From: Caenorhabditis elegans
Taxonomy: Eukaryota; Nematoda; Chromadorea; Rhabditida; Rhabditidae
DNA: 64,000 bases
NCBI RefSeq assembly: GCF_000002985.6
Contig: NC_003282.8
Span: forward strand, 10,478,001-10,542,000
Reading direction: 5' to 3'
Under the pieces are notes generated by a model, which did no database searches, had not been told where the DNA came from, and saw nothing but the letters and a program-made list of their open reading frames with translations. Of the stretch, positions 1 through 63,335 are shown one piece after another. Position 1 is the first letter of the stretch. Each line of letters begins with the position of its first letter. The position numbers and the translations under genes are program-made.

Positions 1-168
1 TGCAGTGCTCACACATCAAAAGCGTTTGAGAACACGGTTAGTGACTAGGAAAGTTTGTAAATTTCAACAAAAAATTATATTAATTTCAGATCATACAAGC
101 GATTTATGCATTATATCAACACAACATATCCAGATACTTTTGATCAATGTGGAAAATTTGTCATGTAG
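1..168 (+). CDS. 3' end of an unidentified protein-coding gene (partial)
   Basis: Two exon pieces read into each other in one frame: 1-36 ends at a GTTAGT donor, the 53-bp intron closes with TTAATTTCAG at 88-89, and the terminal exon runs 90-168 to a TAG stop. The joined tail is basic and then polar; it includes HQKRLRTR before the junction and FDQCGKFVM at the C-terminus. It is too short to assign a family. The gene runs toward egl-21, so the two are convergent. The call rests on the intron signals and the frame continuity only. Confidence 0.55.
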
Positions 169-31430: not shown

Positions 31431-32888
31431 TGGAAAGGAGGGAAAGAAAAGAGAGATTGCATTTCCAAGTGCTGGAGGGAGAGCACAGGTGATAAGCCGT
31501 GTATATGTGCCAGTCTATTTATATTCACACGCACACATTCATTTTATGGATATGTAAAGATAGAAAAAATGAAATGAGAAAAAGAGAGTGAGCTCTTTCG
31601 GATTTATAATTCTTGAATATCAAAGAAATGTGTCCGGAGATTGTGAGAGAAAGAGAAAAGTTATCTACTTTTCATTATAACTGAAGGAACAAACATGATT
31701 CTTATATTCTGATTGGATTCTGCAAGAAAAAGACATAAATACTATAAAAAGATGCGCAAAGAAATGAAAACTTTTTTGAATCCAAACAACTATTGCATCA
31801 AACTCCAATTTTGTCGCTAGTTTTTAAGCAACGCAATTTCAAATGTTTTTGTTGAGAATTCAAAGTTAAAATTTGAAAAAATCTCATCAACTCTATTAAT
31901 GTCTTGAAATGTATTCTATATGAAAATGAAGTGGAGCCAGTGGAAAATACAATAGATTCCCATAGTCAAAGTTCCAAAAGCTTAAGAGATCTAGAACAAT
32001 ATTTGAAACAGTGATTTAAAAAAAATCATGCATTTTTTAAAAAGTAAGAATATAATTTAGATGAATTATTTCCCAATTTTTTTCATTTGTGAATGAATCA
32101 TAGAATTAGAAAACGAGTTTAGTTAATCAATTGTTTTCTGAATCAGTAGTTGTAGTTATGCTCAATTTGAAAGCGCAAAATCTACTGAAATTTATATAGT
32201 TAATTTTGAAGCAACAAAAATGAAATTTGCTTCTCCACAATAAAACTCTAAAACAACTCAAAACTAGTTAAAATTGTGTAAAAAGCTCCAGAATATTCAA
32301 AAATGTGTAATCAACCAGATTTGATTTTTTTTGGTCGGATTTAAACATCATAAAGAAACAGTGATTTTTTCTAAAATAAGTTTTTTCAAAAAAATGGACA
32401 AAAACCTTGACAGTGTTACGAAAGTTTCTTGTGAACACATTTCACAAAAAATTACACACTTACCAGCATAACAAATTACGAAGTTTTAAAAAAAAGTTTG
32501 AATCATTTTACATCACAATATTAATTATCGTGTTTCGAAGAACTATTCCAAAAAAAAGTACATTGAAAACTTGAGCATTATTTGAAACAGTGAATTTTTT
32601 AAAACCATTTTATCAGGTTTTAGATGAAGAAATCGCCAAAATGTTTCATTTGTGAATAGCGAACCATAAAAAGAAAGGCGGAAAACATAAGAAACTTTAA
32701 AAAACGCGGAAAACATAAGAAATACGCATGAACACGATAATGGTATTATGAAAACTGGTCGCATGGCCATCTCCTGATTACTTGAAATATTGTTTTTTTT
32801 CTAAAACCTTGTTTTTTGAATAAAGGCGCGAACACCTCAGTAATGCTACCCAAGTATTTAATGGTTAAATGTTTGCAGAAATTATTCT

Positions 32889-32909
32889 GGTGTACTATTA
32901 TTAACATAA
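32889..32909 (-). ncRNA. Candidate 21U-RNA (piRNA)
   Basis: On the minus strand CTGTTTCA begins at 32946. A YRNT element (TGTT) ends at motif position 38, which places the 5' U at 32909. The surrounding DNA is AT-rich, as is usual for type I 21U loci. The call is from the promoter pattern only. Confidence 0.4.
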
Positions 32910-35142
32910 ACATGTAACCCAAATATTAATTTAAAGTTTGAAACAGTTTATTATTATCGGATGTTTTGAAAACTTCCAATTTAAATTTTTTTAATAATCA
33001 TATAGTCTTGTAAATTTTCAAACAAAATTTTTTAGATTCGTTATGAAATTTTAGTTTTTATGAATTTCCAAATTTTAAAAGTATATGAATTCGAAGATCA
33101 GAGACGATGTGCTCATCGCAAAAACGACTATACGCAATGTGTACATTACGAATCTAATAGTTATTTTACTTGAACTTTATGCTATGATATTTAGTCTTTT
33201 GAGTACTTGAGTACGACAGTTTTCTGTACTAAATGCAATTTAAAAATAAAAATTAAAAAAAATAAAAATATTTATTCTGAATAAAACTGCCTATTTAATA
33301 TTTCATTCACATAAATCATTTAGAAAATATTTAGTGCATTTAAACTTTAGTAACTTAATAACAGCAAAAGAAGAAGCTAACGAATTTTTTATGTAAAATT
33401 TGAGAAGTGATAAAGCATTTTGTTGCAGCTGACAACATACATCAGTTATCAGTTGGAATGCTAAAGGAAGCTGAATAAATATTTACAGTTTTCAACGTTT
33501 TTCAATTGAAACTTTTATCGAAAAAAACGTGATATATTGTACTTCACTTGTTGGTCACAAGGTGAATTTTTTCCAGAAAGTTTATGCATAAAATTGTGGT
33601 TTTGTTGATGATAACCTTTTGTCCTCGTCCATTTCTCTGATAATACAACTAACCGGTTGGGTGACGGTATGGTCAAAGTCGGAGTCTGAAATGCAAATTC
33701 GCTCCGATGACGTGATGACGTCATGACGTGTGTGTTGCATACTTTTTTCGTCTCACAGAGCAATCAAGAGCCAGAACAAAATTGGCGACGAAAAGCGGGA
33801 AAGGAAAAATGGAAAAATTGGAGAAAAAAGAAGGCAGTTTTGTGTTGTTCAGAAGGAGGAAAAAAGTAGGAGAACGAAGAAGGAGGATGGAAACAAAATG
33901 AGATGCCTAGCTCCTAGCTTCTCGGTGCTCGGAGCTCCGACGAGTTCATGAATTTTAAACAGGGTTTTCTTCCTTCTCAACTAAAACGGAACATTCGTTG
34001 TTGCTCTCAAAAAGCTCATAATTCATAGGATCTATGGCTCTTGGAGCTGTGGCTGTAATTGAGAGGGTCGAAGCTAAGCGGAAGCTCCAAATGGTTCCCA
34101 AGGGACGTTGGGGGAGGAGTTGAAAACATGGAAAACGAGCGTTAAAACAGAGAAAACAGACAGCCATCCAACGCAACAATATGATGATGATCTTTTCGGT
34201 CTTTTTGGTCTTTTTTGGAGAAAAGGAAGGATAGGTCGCAATAATTTGAGGGGTAAAAAAATAGGAACCAAAAATGGTGAATAGGATCACAGGCAGTTAT
34301 CCAAAAACAAAAAAAAAACTAAAAAGCGGTTTGACTTGTATGAAAAGTAAACTGCGCAAAACCACTTTTTTAAAATTCCAAGAAACTCCGTTTCTGCTTC
34401 TGTTGAATTGCAGCTTTCAGTAGTGTGTCGTTGCAAAATCAGAAATGTTTTGTAAAAATTTCGAACAATTCTAGGTTGATTCTTGCGTTAATCAATTGAG
34501 CTTTGTTTCAAAATCCCGGTAACATAGCCTCTCCATCTCGCCAAATATTAAAAATTATTGCAATGCTTTTTGTGAAATCTAAATTACTCAGCAGCTCTAA
34601 CCTCAAAAGTGACGCGGAAAAGCTCCAAAGGAAGTGATTATTTTTTTCATTTCCATTTCTAGATCAACTGTGGGTATGCAAAATATATGCTTCTAAGTTC
34701 GAAGTTTGGGATCAAGGAATTTCAAAATCTCAAAGTTAATATTTAGGGGTTCTCAAAAAGTCACCAATTAAACAAAATCTGAGACGTGTTTTTGAAAAAG
34801 TGTGCAATACATGTTACACAACATTGAATGCCATTGAATCTCTTGTTGTGTGTCACCCTTCCTCATCAAGATCAGTCATCGAATGAAATTGATTGTGAAT
34901 GGAGACGCAGACATCAATTTATTTACTCCACCACCACAAGGCTCCGATTTTCTTCCAGAATCTATGTGATGTAGTAAAAAGACACGCGAATGACTAAAAT
35001 CACATGGTTTAAGACGGAATAAATGCGGGGTTCTCCTGTTTCTAGAACCAAGACATCTGCTCATCGGATTGCGATAAATCGCTCTGAAGATGTTCAGAAC
35101 CAGATGTCTTTTGTCATGGGAAAAATGTGGAGAAGTGAACAT

Positions 35143-35163
35143 TTTAAGAATATTTCTTTTAAA
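35143..35163 (-). ncRNA. Candidate 21U-RNA (piRNA)
   Basis: Minus-strand CTGTTTCA begins at 35200 and TGAT (YRNT) ends at motif position 38, giving a 5' U at 35163. The spacing equals that of the candidate at 32909. Confidence 0.4.
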
Positions 35164-35392
35164 TCAGGGACAGAAACTATATGTTCCTGATTTGAAACAG
35201 AAACTATATAATAAAGTTGCATAGAAGTTTAAAAACATGTTCAAAATTTCTGATAAGCGTGATAAAATTGGGTCAGTCAAAGAGCACGAATTGAAATAGC
35301 AATTACGCACAATTCAGAGTTTTTTGACGTAATTGACAAGAAATTTTGGTTGAAACAATTTTTATCAATGTCTAATGAACGTCAAAAAGTTT

Positions 35393-35413
35393 AAAAATAA
35401 ATCAGAAAATCAA
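35393..35413 (-). ncRNA. Candidate 21U-RNA (piRNA)
   Basis: Minus-strand CTGTTTCA begins at 35451 and CGAT (YRNT) ends at motif position 39, giving a 5' U at 35413. It lies about 250 bp from the previous candidate on the same strand. Confidence 0.4.
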
Positions 35414-35983
35414 TCGGAAGTCACATGAAATTAGAAGAGCGCTTGAAACAGTATCATTTTGAAACATAATTTTCCAAATTGTATTTCAAAATTTAGACTT
35501 CATACCTCATGACTACCAACATTATGATTATCAGAAATTTTTAAAGAAGACACTCCAACCATGCGGTGCATGACAGGGCGCCTGTCACCCGCCTCTGCAA
35601 CCGCCTTTCAAACTCCCTGTATGGGAGGCGGACCAATTTTTAAAAAAATGTTTTTGAATAAATTTTTTGAAGCATGCTTTTTTTTATTAAAATAAAATTT
35701 GACAATTTATAAGATTTCAATTTTTTCATATTTTTATTCTTTCTCATACGTAGAAACAATTTTTCGAAAACATTATTTACTGGTAGGCACATAAATTTTC
35801 AAGCAATTCTCTCAAATATAAAAATCCCAGAACCACATAAAACTATGAGAATTCTCTTTGATTTCTTTGACAACAACATCCACAATTTTAGTACCCATAA
35901 CATATTTATTACTCATTCGTATTATTAGATATATCGTCAAGATTCGATAATCATCTTTAATAAAAAATTTCAAGAAATCTCAA

Positions 35984-40699: not shown

Positions 40700-41905
40700 T
40701 CACATGAAATCAAAGTTTTCGTTTCCAGGATTCCATATCTTCTTATTTTTATTTTTTGTAGCTGCGTCACAAATGTACGGCTTTGTCTGCGGTTGACGCA
40801 AACAAATTTGAGTCCATTCAGCTGATTTCTTCATTGATACCTTCTTCAAATCTTTTTTTTTGTATTTTCTGATGATCACAAGACATTTTTTGGATTTATC
40901 GCATCGAGATTTTCTTTTTAAAACATAATGACTCACTTTCGAATAGTGATCTAAAAACGGATTAAGGTGTGAGTTGATGTAAGGCCCGTGGTGACGATAA
41001 AAGTCAGATTATGAATAAGATCGTTTACATAACTTGAATATAAGCATTAAAATTTTTATTCGTTCTGTTTTTTATTAGTACCCACCGTTTTGATTTGTGA
41101 ACTTCTCACTATGCATAAAAAATAAATACTGTATTTAACTTAATTACTCCTTTTAACAACTTATATCTCGGTTGGTTCAATTTATAAATATCCAGAAACC
41201 GTAAAATACAGATTTACAAAATAATAAATATCATACCAGTTCACCTACGTAATCTTCTGTCTGAAAAAAATTCGTATGTATTTTTATTTTTATCATTTTC
41301 CCCAAATTCTGATATATCAAGTGCACGTATTCCTTAATCTGCCACGGCACAATATTCTCCGTAATCCACGATTTTCTCCCATTATTTTTTCTCTGCTCGA
41401 AAAAAGAAGAGCACCAATATTCAGCACATGCCCCTGATTCATAATTCATCAAGTTGCTCGAATCGCTCTAAAAATTCTTTTACGGAAAATTTTCCATTTT
41501 TTTATTTGTGAAAATCTAGAATTTTCTACACATTTTTTTGTTAACAGACAACTATTTATTTTACTGGAAAATTATAACCTGAATATTTTTGACTAAATTA
41601 TATTTTTGCAAACTGTTTTGGAAATAAAATTTTTTCAGGCCTTCATATGTATTTCAAAGAATCGAAATATTCGAATATTTTGCGTGAATTTGAAAAAGAG
41701 CACATTCCGAAAAAGAGCAAAAAGCAAAAAGCAAAGAAAAAAAGAATCTTCTGGGAATTAAAGGCGCCCACCTCGTTTTTCTCTTAAAACTCTCCGTTTC
41801 TCTGTTTTTTCTTTCTATTTTTGAAAACTTTTTATTGCTTACTTTTTATCCATTCTCTGGTACTTTTCCTTTTCGTTTTCCATCTCCTTTGTCTGTTTTT
41901 GGCAT
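40700..41905 (-). CDS. Small lysine-rich protein of unknown function
   Basis: A four-exon model, 41905-41864, 41467-41327, 41260-41245 and 40950-40700, gives 149 aa with all phases agreeing. The start codon directly follows TTTTTCAG, which suits trans-splicing onto the ATG. The product is highly basic (KKKDLKKVSMKK near the middle of the last exon) with scattered Cys and Trp residues and no recognised domain. The 66-nt intron between exons 2 and 3 has no in-frame stop, so exon 2 could also read through to the exon 3 boundary. The model rests on splice signals and frame continuity; alternatives are possible. Confidence 0.45.
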
Positions 41906-50300: not shown

Positions 50301-52319
50301 AATCTGCTTCTACAAAAATTACGAATATCATAATCTCATAGCTTCAAAAATCAGAGAAAATCCTTAATCTGCACCAAAACTCAATCCCAGGAATAATAAA
50401 ATCTCGCGAGAATTCATGGACAATTATTTTGAGATCATCCATTCGTTGGGGGCATCATGAAAGTTAAAGTTAACTAGACGCGGGATCATATACCACATGT
50501 TCAATTTTCCAGATGTCATCCATTTTTCTTCCGTTTTCTCAAGTATTTTTCTAACACTGGTGCCCCCGGAAACTAATGGAATTGAGATAAAAGTTTAGGG
50601 AAATTGCGTGGAAACTATAGAGACGCAGCGAAATCATCAATCCGTTGCTCTTTTTCCCACTGTTTCGCAGGTTTATTGGCACCTCCGCGCTGATCCTGGT
50701 CGCAAGTCTTCTCATTTTTCCAACATGATTTTGCAGAGCGAAAAATTAAAACTCATCTGGCATTATCTGAATCCATTTTTTTTTAAATTAAAATATAGCT
50801 ACCATACAATATGTCAATAATTACAGTAACCGACGTTATATTACTTGATAATAATATAAATAAAAATTGGAACACCTTTCCTTCCGACCTAGAATAATTT
50901 TTTTGTACAAAAAATGCACACTAGTGCAGTCTTCAGCTTCAAAAATTAAAATCCGTCTATTTTCTGTAATTGAAAAAATAGTTTTTTTTGAAAATGTTGA
51001 GAATATCCTAAATCATTTTGCACCTGAAAATATCATGAAATCTAAAAAGTTCTTATGAAACAACTGCCCATCAATTTTGCCTCTCTTGGATTGTCCATGT
51101 CCTTTCCGACGTGACGTTGACATTTCCTCATTTCATCAAAAAACTGAGAGCATGTCATTTCTCTCTCTCTCTCCATCCTCACCTCATTGTGTTCTTGTTA
51201 TTTTTCGTCTCTGATTGTAACAGACACCACAAATACAACTGGAGTGTCCCCTTTTCTCCGTTGTGGGAAGTGTTTTTTGGTTCAATGAAAAGAACAATCT
51301 TTGATTGACATCCTTTTTTGGTAATTCTTGAAATCATCTAAAAAAATATTATTTGAGTTTTGGATACTGAAAGTTTATGTCACATTTTTTGTTCTGAGTT
51401 TTAGTAGTTTATGATAGATACCGTATTATTTTTATTGGTCATGCATATCTTCTTATGTTTCAAAAAATAATTATCCAATTCACTAATTTAAGTAGCACGA
51501 CGCGACATGTATCGCCAGGGAACCAATCAATCGGTGTGCTCCGATGCCGATGAGTTCACACCAGAAGAACTTCAAGAATTTGCTCAAGCCTTCAAATTGT
51601 TTGACAAGGATGGAAACAACACAATGAATATCAAAGAATTGGGTGAAGCAATGCGTATGCTTGGTCTGAATCCAACTGAAGAAGAGCTTCTTAACATGGT
51701 TAACGAGTATGATGTGGATGGTAATGGAAAAATTGATTTTGGAGAATTTTGTAAAATGATGAAGGAAATGAACAAAGAAACTGATCAAGAGTTGATTCGG
51801 CTTGCTTTCAAGTGAGTTTTTCTCTTATTTTTCTGTAATTTTTAGTGGTTTCCATAAAATCAAACAACACACAGAAACTGATGAAATGCAAATATTTTGA
51901 CACTTTTTAATGTCCTGAATATAAATTTCAAATCCTCTTTCAAGTGAACAAAAATCAACGTTGACCCGTTTTCAGAGTGTTTGATAAAGATGGAAACGGG
52001 TACATTACTGCACAAGAGTTCAAGCATTTCATGACTACAATGGGTGAAAGATTCAGTGAGGAAGAGGTTGATGAGATTATTCGAGAAGTTGATAAGGATG
52101 GCGATGAACAGGTAAGACATGATTCTGGATGAATTAAAAAACATGATTGATTAGTTTGATGAAAAACAACAATACAGATTCCCTATATGTATGAATCTCT
52201 TTAATTTTCAGATCGACTTAGACGAGTTCGTCAACATGGTTGCTCCGATTGTATCGGATGGTACCAAAACTGATCCATTCCTCGAACCAACTGCCTCCAC
52301 TAATCCACCTACCAAATAA
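47301..52319 (+). CDS. cal-4: CAL-4, calmodulin-like four-EF-hand protein
   Basis: Exons 47301-47341, 48099-48205, 51493-51811, 51976-52111 and 52212-52319 give 236 aa in continuous frame. A 54-residue N-terminal extension (starting [14 protein letters not shown]) precedes an internal Met that could start a 182-aa form. Four EF-hand loops follow: [12 protein letters not shown] (87-98), [12 protein letters not shown] (123-134), [12 protein letters not shown] (159-170) and DKDGDEQIDLDE (195-206). All have Asp at position 1 and Glu at 12. The usual Gly at position 6 is Asn in loop 1 and Glu in loop 4. A Pro/Thr-rich tail ends NPPTK. The protein is expected to bind calcium and may regulate calmodulin-type targets. 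The symbol is from memory; cal-1 was excluded because its N-terminus differs. Confidence 0.85.
48206..51492 (+). other. Large cal-4 intron
   Basis: This 3.3-kb intron holds pyrimidine-rich sequence at 49360-49830 that gives long but unconvincing open frames, and a repeat-like patch at 48930-49160. The acceptor at its 3' end (TAATTTAAG) is weak for the species. Confidence 0.5.
48930..49160. repeat. Dispersed-repeat-like patch
   Basis: Contains GTACGTAGGCATAGGCAC, GACGACCTACGTCTACC and GCTCACGCCTGAAGACGTCC, short inverted or variant forms of a GTAGGC/CTACGTC wording also seen near 46110. I infer an old interspersed element. Confidence 0.35.
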
Positions 52320-52751: not shown

Positions 52752-54888
52752 ATGAGTAAAAATAGTGGAGATCTACATTTTCATGTCAATGATGTACCAC
52801 ATAAATCGGCAATTTTCTTTTTCGGACTTCAGCAGATGCTCGTTTGTATTTCAGCTTTACTTGTAACTCCATACTTTGTTTCCAATTTATTATGTGCTGG
52901 AGCGGAAACTACTGAAGTCAGGTTGGTTGAAATATATTACAACAATTTGAACTGGCTTTACTGTTTTCCATACGTAACACTATGTAATTCTTGTTGCGTG
53001 TTTTGAATCCGGACATTTGTCTTCTGAAGTTAACTGAATAAAGGACACTGGGACTACTCTTGATTGTTTTTATCTTCAAAATAAGTTATTTCTACCAACT
53101 AAAAATTCAGAGTTCAACTAATTGCCGCTACATTCATCTCCAGTGGAATTGCAACAATACTACAAACTACGTTCGGTCTAAGGTTTTATGATACTAAACC
53201 GGATATTTTATGACACATACTGTCTGCAGATTAGCCATACTTCACGGTCCATCGTTTGCCTTTTTTCCTGCTTTACACACCTTTGGGGATGTCTACCCAT
53301 GTAATTCGGATACTGATACAACACAATGGAAGGAAAAATTACAGATGGTTAGTGGAAAGCTTTAATAAACTTTCGCTGGACTATGAAACGTTACAATATT
53401 GGCCCAGTATAATCCTCTATAGATAATTTAAAAAGCTAATTTTTCATAACTGAAAAATACGTGAATTTTTTCAGATATCAGGTTCACTGTTTGTTGCAGT
53501 TTTAATTATGCCTTTCCTGGGGATTACTGGAATGGTTGGAAGAATTGCAAAACATATTGGCCCAATTACAATTGTACCTATGCTAATGCTTTTATGTATT
53601 GGAACTGTACAAGATATTGAGCAAAAAGTCTCGCACCATTGGATTTCGATTGTCGAAATCTTACTTCTCATTATCTTTGTAGTTTTATTGGAAGAGTTCG
53701 AAGTTCCGATGCCAGCATTCTCTATGGAAAAGAAGGCATTTTACACTGCTAAGATGAAGATATTCAGTCAGTTTCCGGTAGAAAATATTATTTAAACCAC
53801 AATTTCAACATTTCTAATTACAGTATCTCCTGGGAATCATGATAGCTTGGTTTGTGTGTTGGATACTAACAATCACTGATCTAGAGCCATATGGATGTTC
53901 TGCAAGAACTGATAGGAATGAAAGTTTATTTGTATTAGAAAATACTCCATGGATTCAAATTCAATACCCTCTTCAATATGGGCTTCCAAAATTAAGTGCT
54001 CCATTGATAATTGCATTCAGTGCTTCAATGTTAGCTGCAACGATAGAAAGTATTGGAAATTATGGTGAGCATTCCTCACGTTTTAAACATTTAAAATCTA
54101 TTGATCTATAGGAATATGTGCTCGGATTTGTCAGCAAGGAAGTCCTCCATCTTCAAGTATGAATCGGGCATTTGTTGTAGAAGGTTTTGGAAGTATGTTA
54201 GCAGCATTAATGGGAGTTGGAACTGGTGTTACAACTTATTCAGAGAATATTGCAATTATGCAAGTCACAAAAGTTAGTAGTTTGTGGCATTAATGATATT
54301 ACAATATTTGAATTTCAGGTAACCAGTCGAATAACAATGCAATGTGCCGGAGTAATTCTAATTTTAATGGGTATTTTCTCGAAATTCGCTGCATTTCTTG
54401 CAATGATACCTGAAGCTATAATTGGAGGAGTATTAACTGCTGGAATGAGTATGATTTGTGGAGTTGCATTTTCAAATTTACAATCAGTTGATCTACGGCT
54501 TTCAAGAAACTTGACAATAATTGGACTTTCAATTATTCTTGGATGCACAATTCCAGCTCACTTTGAGAAATCACCTCTTCATAGTGGAAATAAGACAATT
54601 GATGACATTTTTGGAACATTATTAAAAATGAGAATGCTTGTTGGAGGATTAATTGCATTTTGTTTAGATATTATTGCTAGTGGAGCAACAAGAAAGCAAA
54701 GAGGATTTGAAGATAAGTTAGAGAAGATTGAAATATCAGTGGAAAAGAATGGATTCGCATTGTCTTCATTTGCAAATCAGACTATTTTGAAAATTCCATC
54801 ACTTACAAAACTTCCAATTGTTCCGTCTGAAAAGTCAATAAGAAGAATAGAAGAATTAAGAATGAAAGTAATTGACCATAAGATTTAA
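52752..54888 (+). CDS. Nucleobase-ascorbate transporter (NAT/SLC23), gene 1
   Basis: Seven exons: 52752-52921, 53111-53182, 53230-53347, 53475-53777, 53824-54064, 54112-54272 and 54319-54888, giving 544 aa. The sequence has many hydrophobic helices and family landmarks: IFFFGLQQMLVCISALL in the first membrane segment, the NAT signature region SENIAIMQVTKVTSR, and GVAFSNLQSVDLRLSRNLTI near the C-terminal helices. SLC23/NAT proteins carry ascorbate, uric acid or nucleobases across the plasma membrane. In the signature, Ala stands where Gly is common, so substrate is uncertain. All splice sites are canonical. From 54141 to the end it is shared with NAT gene 2. I believe it belongs to the T07G12 gene group, from memory. 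Confidence 0.88.
54141..54885 (+). repeat. 745-bp inverted repeat, arm 1 (inside NAT gene 1)
   Basis: It matches the reverse complement of 58748-59492 with no difference in the DNA segments I compared, including the 46-bp intron 54273-54318. The encoded proteins are identical over their last 222 codons. The first mismatches outward are at 54140 and 54125, and identity ends three bases before the stop. Confidence 0.93.
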
Positions 54889-58740: not shown

Positions 58741-60684
58741 GACTTACAATCTTATGGTCAATTACTTTCATTCTTAATTCTTCTATTCTCCTTATTGACT
58801 TTTCAGAAGGAACAATTGGAAGTTTTGTAAGAGATGGAATTTTCAAAATAGTCTGATTTGCAAATGAAGACAATGCGAATCCATTCTTTTCCACTGATAT
58901 TTCAATCTTCTCTAACTTATCTTCAAATCCTCTTTGCTTTCTTGTTGCTCCACTAGCAATAATATCTAAACAAAATGCAATTAATCCTCCAACAAGCATT
59001 CTCATTTTTAATAATGTTCCAAAAATGTCATCAATTGTCTTATTTCCACTATGAAGAGGTGATTTCTCAAAGTGAGCTGGAATTGTGCATCCAAGAATAA
59101 TTGAAAGTCCAATTATTGTCAAGTTTCTTGAAAGCCGTAGATCAACTGATTGTAAATTTGAAAATGCAACTCCACAAATCATACTCATTCCAGCAGTTAA
59201 TACTCCTCCAATTATAGCTTCAGGTATCATTGCAAGAAATGCAGCGAATTTCGAGAAAATACCCATTAAAATTAGAATTACTCCGGCACATTGCATTGTT
59301 ATTCGACTGGTTACCTGAAATTCAAATATTGTAATATCATTAATGCCACAAACTACTAACTTTTGTGACTTGCATAATTGCAATATTCTCTGAATAAGTT
59401 GTAACACCAGTTCCAACTCCCATTAATGCTGCTAACATACTTCCAAAACCTTCTACAACAAATGCCCGATTCATACTTGAAGATGGAGGACTCCCTTGCT
59501 GACAAATTCGAGCACATATTCCTTTAAATAATTAATATTTAATAAAAAATTAAGTCCTGGATCCATGGATCTCACCATAACTTCCAATACTTTCTATCAT
59601 TGCTGCTAACATTGAAGCAGTAAATGCAATCACCAATGGAGCACTCAATCTGGGGAATCCGAACTGAAGAGGGTATTGAATTTGAATCCATGGAGTATTT
59701 TCTAATACAAATAAACTGTCATTCCGATCAGTTCTTGCAGAACTTCCATATGGCTCTAGATCAGAAATTGTAAGTATCCAACACGCAAACCAGGCTATCA
59801 TTATTCCCAAGAGATACTGTAATCAAATGTGAAATATAATAGGAACAACTTTCCTGACCGGAAACTGGCTGAACAGTTTTATTTTCATGGTGTTGAATTT
59901 CTTCTGTTCCATGGAAAAAGCTGGGATGGGTACTTCATATTCTTCCAATAACACCACAAAAGCAATAAGAATTAGAATTTCGATAATAGATATCCAGTGA
60001 AGTGAGACTTTATGTTCAATATCGGGAATCACTCCAATGCAAAGTAGAATTAACATAGGTACAATTGTAATTGGACCAATATGTTTAGCCATTCTTCCAA
60101 CCATTCCAGTCAACCCCAGAAAGGGCATGATTAGTACTGCCGCAAATAGTGATCCGGAAATCTAAAAATTTTAACTGAAATCTTAGAAATATTTGTTTAA
60201 GTTTTTTAAAGCTTATGTTCTATACCAATTGCAGTCTTTCCCTCCATTGTGTAGTATCAGTATCAGAATTGCATGGATAAAGATCTCCAAATGTATGTAG
60301 AGCAGGAAAGAACGCGGCAGAGGGTCCATGAAGAATAGCAAGTATGCAGAAAATATTTGTGCACTTAAGACTATTTTTAAAATTGATACCTAAGCCCAAA
60401 TGTAGACTGTAGAATAGTTGCTATTCCACCTGTGATAAAAGTTGCAGAAATTAGTTGAACTCTAGAAAATAGGACATCAAAAAATGGAAAAATTTAATAA
60501 CTCACCTGACCGCAGTTGTTTCAACTCCAGCACATAATAAATTGGAAACAAGATAAGGTGTAATCAGTAAAGCTGAAATGCATACGAGCATCTGTTGAAA
60601 ACCATAGAAAAATATTGCAGAGATATTTGGGATATCATTGACATAATAATAAAGATCAGAAGTTTCTCTTGATTTTCTGGTCAT
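58736..60684 (-). pseudogene. Nucleobase-ascorbate transporter gene 2, with a broken splice acceptor
   Basis: Seven homologous exons: 60684-60506, 60461-60390, 60343-60226, 60161-59859, 59816-59576, 59521-59361 and 59314-58736. If all are joined they give 550 aa, collinear with NAT gene 1 exon for exon. The open frames are intact and the signature SENIAIMQVTKVTSR is present. However, the 46-bp intron 60389-60344 ends CTGCAT where gene 1 has CTGCAG, so the invariant G of the acceptor is T (+ strand A at 60344). In-frame cryptic acceptors in exon 3 (such as 60243-60242) would delete about 34 residues of a conserved membrane region. It may be a pseudogene, an allele of a working gene, or a rare non-AG acceptor. 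The last 745 bp of coding sequence are the conversion tract shared with gene 1. Confidence 0.7.
58748..59492 (-). repeat. 745-bp inverted repeat, arm 2 (inside NAT gene 2)
   Basis: Partner of 54141-54885. Just outside the arm, the next exon inward is clearly diverged (for example ACWILTISDLEPYGSS against VCWILTITDLEPYGCS). At the 3' edge the sequence becomes GTAAGTCAATAA. Confidence 0.93.
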
Positions 60685-61057: not shown

Positions 61058-61575
61058 TTGGGCGAATAATGGCAAAAGTGAGCCAACTCTCCCAGGGGCA
61101 ACAAATTAGGGGACAAACTTTTTAGGGTTTATTTGAATGTTGCTCTACTGATTTGAAATATCATAGGACTTCCCTGTTCCAATTTCTTTTTTTTTTCAGA
61201 ATTTTTTTAGACTACTTAAAGACGTCTCTCTGTTTCTTAGTAAAGTCAGTCATTCTTTCACAAAAAGAAGTTTTTTGAAAAAAAATTACTGTTTCTCAAT
61301 AATTTTAAGTTGATTGCCATTATGGCCGCGTTCTGATCTTGAATCAAGGGTGTCGGTTTTTCGAATTTTCAGAATTTTTAAGGTTAAAATGAACGTGTTT
61401 AAAATGAGTTTTAAAATTGTGATTGCTAATTCTTTCAAATATTGAAAGCCACATGACAAGTTTCTTTTTTTTGCGAATTATTTGGCTTTTAAACAAAAAA
61501 CCCATAACCTGCTAAATTTTTTGTTTTTGTTTTGCTCCAACCTGTAGAAATCGCCCAATGTTTTGTATTCACGTT
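61058..61575 (+). mobile_element. Left arm of a large palindromic element
   Basis: It pairs inverted with 62715-63335. Matching blocks include CCAACTCTCCCAGGGGCAAC (right: GTTGCCCCCAGGGAGAGTTGG), TTGAATCAAGGGTGTCGGTT (right: AACCGACACCCTTGATTCAA), TTGCGAATTATTTGGC and GCTCCAACCTGTAG. The arms have diverged by substitutions and small indels. There is no transposase frame. Confidence 0.8.
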
Positions 61576-62322
61576 CATATGTTAATATCAACATGTTGAA
61601 ACAGTGAGCAATTTTTTTAATATGGCGTGACGATTTTGGAACCACCTCTAGATGCTTCCTTTATCTCATAAGCTGGGAAACACGAAACAATCTCTGAAAG
61701 CCCGTCATTGACTTCTTGAATATTTTCGCCGAATTCGCCGTTTGCCAAAATTCTGAAAATTCACCGAGTTTGCCGAATATTATTCGTTCGGCGAATTCGG
61801 CGAATTCAATTTGGCGCGTTTGCTGTTGTTTTTTATGCGCAGAGGATTTAGAATTTTAAAACACATTTAGTGTCACTGGATAGCTGATTTATGTACGTCT
61901 CGAACCTATAACTGATAATGCAAATTTACAGAAGTATAATTGAATATTGAAAGTTAAATAATTATTACATCATGGGAAGGAATTATGTCGTCCCGAACGC
62001 TGAATGGAAATTCACAGTACCTCGAATTTTCAGATTAAATATTTCCGACCAAAGAAATTGAAACTTTAAACATGTTGGTTAAACATATCACATAAGAATG
62101 CGTGTCGAAGACCTTCACCATCTCAATATTTTCAATGTTGGTCTGTTACGCGTGAATTAGTTGAGAAAAATCCGGGATCATTTTATTTGAGGCAGAAATA
62201 CTAAAGTTTTATTTAAGTATAAATGTCGAGTTGGAAACCACAGAAAAAATGATGCCCACCGAATATACGATGGTTAGTTTAAGTTAGTGTAATCGTTCGG
62301 ATCGACACAATTCCTTCCCATG

Positions 62323-62733
62323 GGAAGCTTCATCTTTTGAATTATAAAAAATAAATTTCATTTCCAAATCAGTGTGTGCACTATCAAAAGTGTCCACTGG
62401 AAGCTTCATCTTTTGAATTATAAAAAAATAAATTTCATTTCAAAATCAGTGTGTGCACTATCAAAAGTGTCCACTGGAAGCTTCATCTTTTGAATTATAA
62501 AAAAATAAATTTCATTTCAAAATCAGTGTGTGCACTATCAAAAGTGTCCACTGGAAGCTTCATCTTTTGAATTATAAAAAAACAAATTTCATTTCAAAAT
62601 CAGTGTGTGCACTATCAAAAGTGTCCACTGGAAGCTTCATCTTTTGAATTATAAAAAAATAAATTTCATTTCAAAATCAGTGTGTGCACTATCAAAAGTG
62701 ACCACTGGAAGCTTCATCTTTTGAATTATAAAA
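62323..62733. repeat. 76/77-bp minisatellite, five full copies plus a partial sixth
   Basis: Units start at 62323, 62399, 62476, 62553, 62630 and 62707 with GGAAGCTTCATCTTTTGAAT. Unit 1 is 76 bp, units 2-5 are 77 bp and the last is about 27 bp. The copies differ by only one or two bases each. The array abuts the inner end of the right palindrome arm and seems to have grown from it. Confidence 0.95.
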
Positions 62734-63335
62734 CATTTGGTAACATCTACAGGTTGGAGCAACACAAAAAATAAAAATTTTAGCTGACAGCGTTTTGTGA
62801 TTTTTTTTTGTAATTTTCACTGTTCCTCAATTTATATTTCACTAGGATTTGGTTTCCCTCTTATTATGGATTTTCTGTTTGAATGCCAAATAATTCGCAA
62901 AAAAAAAAAAAGAAATTTGTAATGTTTCACATGACTTTCAATATTTAAAAAATTAGCACTGACAATCACGTTATGTTCTGTCGTTCATGTAAAGCACGTT
63001 AATTTAAACCTTAAAAAATTATGAAACTTCGAAAAACCGACACCCTTGATTCAAGACCAGAGAACGCGGTCATAATTGGGCAACCAACTTAAAAATATTG
63101 AGAAACAGAAATTATTTTTTCAAATTTTTTTTTGTGAAAGAATGACTGACTCCACTAGAGTTGTCCTAGTTTTAAGTAGTTTGAAAAACGTTTTCATTTT
63201 ACAAAATTTTCAAAAAAAAATTACTGTTTCGTCTAGTTTATTTCAACTCTTCTTTTTTATGTTGCCCCCAGGGAGAGTTGGTCTAAACTGGAGGGTGGCA
63301 TAAACAAAGTATTTTTAAAGTTTCGCCCAATGTTT
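62715..63335 (-). mobile_element. Right arm of a large palindromic element
   Basis: Inverted partner of 61058-61575. Similarity fades outward at about 63335 (CGCCCAAT against ATTGGGCG-like sequence on the left). Confidence 0.8.

Follow-up and report, generated by a model that had tools for sequence, protein, structure and literature searches.

The 64,000-nt stretch of Caenorhabditis elegans chromosome IV analysed here (the window, IV:10.48-10.54 Mb) contains at IV:10.51 Mb a group of Ruby motifs, the promoter element of type I Piwi-interacting RNA (piRNA; 21U-RNA) genes. The group lies between the two type I piRNA clusters, cluster I at 4.75-7.5 Mb and cluster II at 13.5-17.5 Mb (extract of PMC11822377), ~3 Mb from either. 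What are piRNA promoter motifs doing at this place, and where did they come from? An initial annotation had proposed candidate 21U-RNA genes here and pointed to chromosome IV as their main home; this is true of the two cluster intervals, but 10.51 Mb is outside both. Cluster location is typical of type I 21U genes and not required, as single-copy 21U cassettes outside the clusters are expressed (PMC3597512), and 68 of 710 PRDE-1 chromatin immunoprecipitation sites were found outside clusters (extract of PMC11822377). Judged by its sequence, the group fairly probably forms a small island of type I piRNA promoter elements outside the clusters, likely weak or decaying genes. This reading of weakness or decay was chosen because most of the motifs lack a good start signal.

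A minus-strand cluster of Ruby motifs between the piRNA clusters

All five minus-strand copies of the motif core CTGTTTCA previously listed were recovered with their coordinates and strand (plus-strand starts 32004, 32583, 32939, 35193 and 35444). The whole window holds 8 copies, the others starting at 1130, 44268 and 61597. All are on the minus strand, and the absence of plus-strand copies noted earlier extends to the entire window (0 copies). For both strands together 3.98 copies are expected, and 4 of 100 shuffled sequences reached at least 8. The five copies lie within 3.46 kb, a density for which the same-strand maximum was 3 in 900 simulated windows (6 x 150 Markov runs of orders 1-3, trained with and without the cluster). 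Scaled from the window expectation, chance would give ~0.11 copies per strand in 3.46 kb, close to an earlier estimate of 0.07. The minus-strand motif cluster is beyond chance. Rfam (gathering thresholds) and ARAGORN gave no match anywhere in the window.

The position of the cluster was further examined with the 14-mer WWCACTGTTTCAAA, searched in the genome of 100,286,401 bases (7 contigs). It occurs 113 times, compared to 16 for the reversed control. Among the 100 of these 113 places that were listed, 85 are in the two clusters, 8 on contigs 1-3 and 7 at IV 7.5-13.5 Mb. Two of these seven lie in the window, 579 bases apart. To find a pair of 14-mers within 64 kb of inter-cluster DNA is unusual, although Ruby motifs outside the clusters are known. 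A published GTTTC measure amounts to 4.0 per kb in clusters, 0.4 in the rest of chromosome IV and 0.2 elsewhere (PMC3597512), and is not the same as a raw count, the window alone having 239 GTTTC sites per 64 kb on both strands.

The left part of the island is paralogous to cluster I DNA

A genome search with positions 31900-33100 listed, besides the query itself, only two pieces, both within C4:6,136,061-6,137,023 and in the same order and on the same strand. The reverse search from these pieces listed only the window, and among the matches listed there was no third copy. The partner at 6.136 Mb is located inside cluster I, and the paralogous stretch in the window (31996-32954) is colinear and diverged. 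It consists of two blocks (Table 1), each with a Ruby motif and the DNA upstream of it. In both copied units homology ends 7-9 nt past the Ruby motif. The upstream 280 nt gave local alignment scores of 242 and 155 (shuffle maxima 33 and 29), while the region 9-242 nt downstream gave 19 and 29, not above shuffle maxima of 27 and 29. By these alignments the two loci share motifs and upstream DNA, not the initiator and 21U regions, and the left part of the island is of common descent with cluster I DNA, Ruby motifs included. The direction of copying was presumably from cluster I to 10.51 Mb.

The motifs differ between the two loci. The cluster I partner of 32004 (L022:881; L numbers denote fetched cluster stretches) reads ATGTTTCA and has the start word YRNT at spacer 38, where the spacer is the number of nucleotides between the motif end and the T of YRNT. 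The 5' core base of the first unit is C in the window and A in cluster I, a position reported to shift male versus female germline expression (extract of PMC3597512). For 32583, the partner site lacks YRNT at 37-39, but L022:1447, a strong site located 56 bases further on, carries it at 37. At the cluster I equivalent of 32939 the sequence is CTTTCTCA, not a Ruby motif. For the right part, the genome search listed no second copy of 34.9-35.7 kb, the segment holding 35444.

Comparison with a cluster II reference promoter

As a reference, 200 kb spread across cluster II was used in 20 stretches, together with 18 loci from cluster I. The cluster II sample contains 230 CTGTTTCA compared to 9 of the reversed word. 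Around the core the sequence is A-rich at -11 to -7 and T-rich at -4 to -2, position -1 is A, and downstream positions +10 to +13 resemble T-A-W-A. YRNT frequency peaks at spacers 37, 38 and 39 (0.18, 0.34 and 0.24; background 0.085), in agreement with a published spacer of ~35-42 nt and a core G most often at -44 (extract of PMC3597512). YRNT occurs at 37-39 in 174/230 sites, and at control spacers 46-48 in 57/230.

A mixture model with a motif part and an initiator part (in bits) was trained on the 1122 GTTTC sites of this sample, the fixed GTTTC columns being excluded. Nine of the 239 GTTTC sites of the window score at least 6 bits (0.40 expected from Markov order 1 windows). Four of them lie within 31.9-35.5 kb, where 0.03 were expected, and these group at 32.3-35.5 kb; four lie at 61.2-63.2 kb, and one at 41194. 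Sites of this strength occur at 15.65 per 10 kb in cluster II (cross-validated) and at 10.15 in the 18 cluster I loci, not counting the bait site of each locus. As a control, the 8 sites on contigs 1-3 with the 14-mer score -7.3 to 7.2, and 1 of 8 reaches 6 bits; 32004, which also carries the 14-mer, scores 4.2. A sequence-only model built from 50 cluster II promoters gave 61597, 32583, 32939 and 32004 as the best four window matches (E 0.00014 to 0.0013, with rough calibration).

The tail P of the flank score is 0.038 at 32004, 0.0002 at 32583, 0.028 at 32939, 0.107 at 35193 and 0.010 at 35444. Compared to cluster II CTGTTTCA sites, the motif parts are at the 24th, 82nd, 24th, 19th and 43rd percentile, respectively, and that of 32354 at the 34th. 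The extended AT-rich motif therefore fits most of the five sites and not 35193, which is probably not a promoter.

Table 1. Predicted promoter elements and paralogous blocks in the window (spacer in nt from motif end to T of YRNT)
Feature	Position	Strand	YRNT spacer	Predicted 5' U	Total (bits)	Remarks
CTGTTTCA	32004-32011	-	none at 35-42		4.2	motif part 6.8 bits, initiator part -2.6
CTGTTTCT core variant	32354-32361	-	39	32314	8.5	absent from the initial annotation
CTGTTTCA	32583-32590	-	40	32542	12.9	strong flanks, weak initiator
CTGTTTCA	32939-32946	-	38	32900	7.9	
CTGTTTCA	35193-35200	-	none at 35-42		3.0	flanks no better than random places (P 0.11)
CTGTTTCA	35444-35451	-	42	35401	9.2	average flanks
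Block B	31996-32324	-				Ruby motif 32004-32011 and ~313 bp upstream; 78% identical to C4:6136061-6136387
Block A	32576-32954	-				Ruby motif 32583-32590 and upstream DNA; 69% identical to C4:6136685-6137023; also contains 32939-32946
CTGTTTCA	61597-61604	-	39		15.5	flanks at 82nd, initiator at 93rd percentile of cluster II
Predicted 21U-RNA TGGGCGATTTCTACAGGTTGG	61537-61557	-		61557		predicted from the motif model
CTGTTTCT core	63101-63108	-	37	63063	11.7	one inverted-repeat arm
CTGTTTCT core	61289-61296	+	40	61337	10.9	other inverted-repeat arm

Start signals and predicted RNA ends

At three sites the initial annotation had placed the T of YRNT 38-39 bases from the motif start (32909, 35163 and 35413) and described this as the arrangement of real 21U loci. 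These positions are only 29, 29 and 30 nt past the motif end. At spacers 29 and 30 the YRNT frequency in cluster II is 0.080 and 0.089, i.e. background, whereas the real spacing is 37-39 nt after the motif end and is found at one of the five sites. The RNA starts had been set ~8 nt too near the motif because the distance was counted from the motif start. The corrected ends show at which bases small-RNA data already available should be inspected. YRNT anywhere at 35-42 is present at three of the five sites (32583, 32939 and 35444); at 37-39 it is also found at 32354 and, outside the reported region, at 61597 and 63101. The proposal of candidate 21U genes is strengthened by the extended motif at most sites and by the copied cluster I DNA in the left part, and is weakened by its misplaced 5' ends and by initiators at or below the 16th percentile at four of five sites.

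Are the sites active, silent or something else?

If the island works as cluster genes do, the Ruby motif would recruit the upstream sequence transcription complex (USTC: PRDE-1, SNPC-4, TOFU-4 and TOFU-5), RNA polymerase II would start 2 nt before the T located ~38 nt past the motif, and a capped ~28-nt precursor would give rise to a 21U-RNA on PRG-1. Motif binding by USTC, the start position and the capped precursor are described in extracts of PMC6317315 and PMC6436959. In the two copied units, neither the start region nor the 21U is common to cluster I, and each motif faces unrelated DNA, with a poor initiator at 32004 and 32583. Silent or weak genes are therefore expected. The likeliest starts in the region are expected to be those of 32939, 32354 and 32583 (Table 1), with weak output.

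In their core, their mostly A-rich upstream and T/A-rich downstream flanks, a T at 35-42 and the paralogy of the left part to cluster I DNA at 6.136 Mb, the sites resemble type I 21U genes of clusters I and II. They differ in lying ~3 Mb away and in mostly missing YRNT at 37-39. Off-cluster single-copy 21U transgenes (PMC3597512) are likewise isolated motif-plus-T units outside clusters; the transgenes are reported to be able to work, and the endogenous sites of the island are candidates predicted from sequence. Type II motif-independent piRNAs (extracts of PMC9683057 and PMC6317315) are also off-cluster, but the island sites have the motif.

Several observations weigh against an island of weak genes. 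Ranked against cluster II, the initiators of 32004, 32583, 32939, 35193 and 35444 are at the 4th, 14th, 52nd, 6th and 16th percentile, respectively, and YRNT at 37-39, seen only at 32939 among the five, is background-like, compared to 174/230 in cluster II. The totals of 32004 (4.2 bits) and 35193 (3.0) are no better than those of several 14-mer-sharing sites on other chromosomes. In the 50-promoter model, 63224 (plus strand) and 52653 come close behind the best four, the mixture model being the only other backing. Copying could also have gone in the opposite direction; alternatively, an ancestral cluster could have been rearranged and have left the two loci as its remnants. Some or all sites may be silent, and for silence of the whole reported group the chance appears to be about one in three.

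Such silence is the core of the most serious alternative, a tentative one that overlaps with the reading as weak or decaying genes: the sites would be non-functional relics, a pseudogene cluster of copied and chance Ruby motifs with little USTC and no 21U-RNA. The poor initiators at four of the five CTGTTTCA sites agree with this, as does the absence of an initiator at 32004 in contrast to the good one of its partner in cluster I. Outside clusters, Ruby motifs are also reported to be under weaker selection (extract of PMC6436959). However, the flanks of 32583, 32354, 35444 and 32939 are within the cluster II range (24th-82nd percentile) with totals of 7.9-12.9 bits. At all five sites a T lies 35-42 nt beyond the core, which is a weak test as T is common; in published synthetic loci, both the motif and a T were required (extract of PMC3597512).

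Much less probable is a chance origin or an unrelated role of CTGTTTCA, for instance in splice acceptors (TTTCAG) or forkhead sites. The copy at 1130-1137 is followed by G and lies in a reading frame with a carboxypeptidase regulatory domain; it is probably a splice acceptor, and as such would confound motif searches of this kind. The base after CTGTTTCA is A at all five reported sites, and promoter-like flanks and cluster I paralogy are not expected by chance. Least probable of all are fully active, ordinary type I 21U genes starting at 32909, 35163 and 35413: neither the motif cluster nor the presence of the three YRNT words is in doubt, but starts 29-30 nt past the motif match the cluster II background (40/230 sites with YRNT at 29 or 30) and fall outside the published window of 35-42 (extract of PMC3597512).

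Promoter-side copying as a possible route to new piRNA genes

How new worm piRNA genes arise is called open in an extract of PMC9683057. The copied units of the island suggest one route, in which upstream DNA and a Ruby motif are copied in front of unrelated DNA and the new sequence at once becomes a 21U; the island might be such an event across 4 Mb. We consider this unlikely on present evidence. If true, promoter-side copying would answer the question of how worm piRNA genes arise.

The 251 kb of cluster sequence analysed contains 21 paralog pairs that cover a motif. Homology stops no more than 50 nt past the motif in 16 of these and no more than 50 nt before it in 2; in circular shifts, 0/2000 reached the observed upstream/downstream difference. 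These pairs are few and non-independent, several coming from L036, with palindromes in L032 and L026 and a tandem array in L038, and the partners L033:1729, L019, L048 and those of three L036 pairs are near a stretch edge. L017, which overlaps L016, was left out of pair and family tests, L001-L008 and L027-L030 of the pair tests. At the level of families with both flanks complete, 6 were homologous upstream only, 5 downstream only and 2 mixed (sign test p = 1.0), which does not support promoter-side birth as a rule. With no score limit the numbers were 9 and 9, and with flanks of 45-200 nt 7 and 4 (p = 0.55). Anchoring on the reverse complement of the motif gave 5 versus 10 (p = 0.30), i.e. 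more upstream in motif orientation. Given the family-level count of 6 versus 5, no general rule of upstream asymmetry at piRNA genes is claimed.

Among the 60 of 91 in-register rows listed, in four of the five downstream-only families, and likewise in the upstream-only pair L049:831/8502, homology is confined to DNA away from the motif; homology reaching the motif is found in L036, L033, L043 and the two window/L022 units. The pair 61289/63101, outside the family test as its core ends in T, extends further downstream than upstream. Several cluster II paralog families end shortly past the motif, like the copied units of the island. Promoter-side copying is a hypothesis suggested chiefly by the two window/L022 units and by the L036, L033 and L043 families.

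The island also offers a natural experiment on the requirements of a productive Ruby motif, as two of its units have motif and upstream DNA in common with cluster I but a different start region and an off-cluster place. Silence of these units would mean that either the initiator or the surroundings of a cluster are decisive; 21U-RNAs made from them would mean that copying the upstream half alone creates a new piRNA.

In cluster II, local unit families were seen at L036:4178-5306, with four sites sharing common upstream DNA, and at L038:8259-8893, a 317-nt tandem array with three motifs. Genome queries of 10 kb were swamped by high-copy repeats; of three 3-kb queries, two gave few matches and one was repeat-rich.

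Judged from listings and extracts, literature on 21U-RNA and tax-6, on piRNA gene duplication, birth or origin and on cluster coordinates contained no report of this island or of copying on the promoter side. Some of the sites may be among the 21U genes annotated so far.

A second motif group at 61-63 kb

The strongest 21U promoter candidate of the window, 61597, lies outside the reported region and was absent from the initial list. Its predicted RNA (Table 1) is expected to be made at a higher level than those of 32939, 32354 and 32583. Next to SLC23-like genes, positions 61238-63157 form a diverged inverted repeat with 26-58-nt blocks at 81-94%, and the site is located at its inner edge. For this repeat two matches of 40-45 nt were listed elsewhere in the genome, and one of them, at C4:14.749 Mb in cluster II, spans the motif 61597. 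Within the inverted repeat lies a tandem array (62269-62810) with a 77-nt unit, the inner copies of which are 98-99% alike.

Neighbouring genes

Domains encoded by genes of the window are DOCK-C2, DHR-2, a calcineurin-like phosphatase (also found with typed calcineurin queries) and Xan_ur_permease; the genes are presumably ced-5, tax-6 and T07G12. The two SLC23-like (Xan_ur_permease) genes, 53461-54885 and 58748-60175, are in inverted orientation. Their 795-nt arms are 98% identical, compared to 76-90% in neighbouring arm pieces, which suggests local gene conversion between the arms. A weak tblastn overlap at 51953-52087 (plus strand) resembles an EF-hand (calmodulin-like) stretch.
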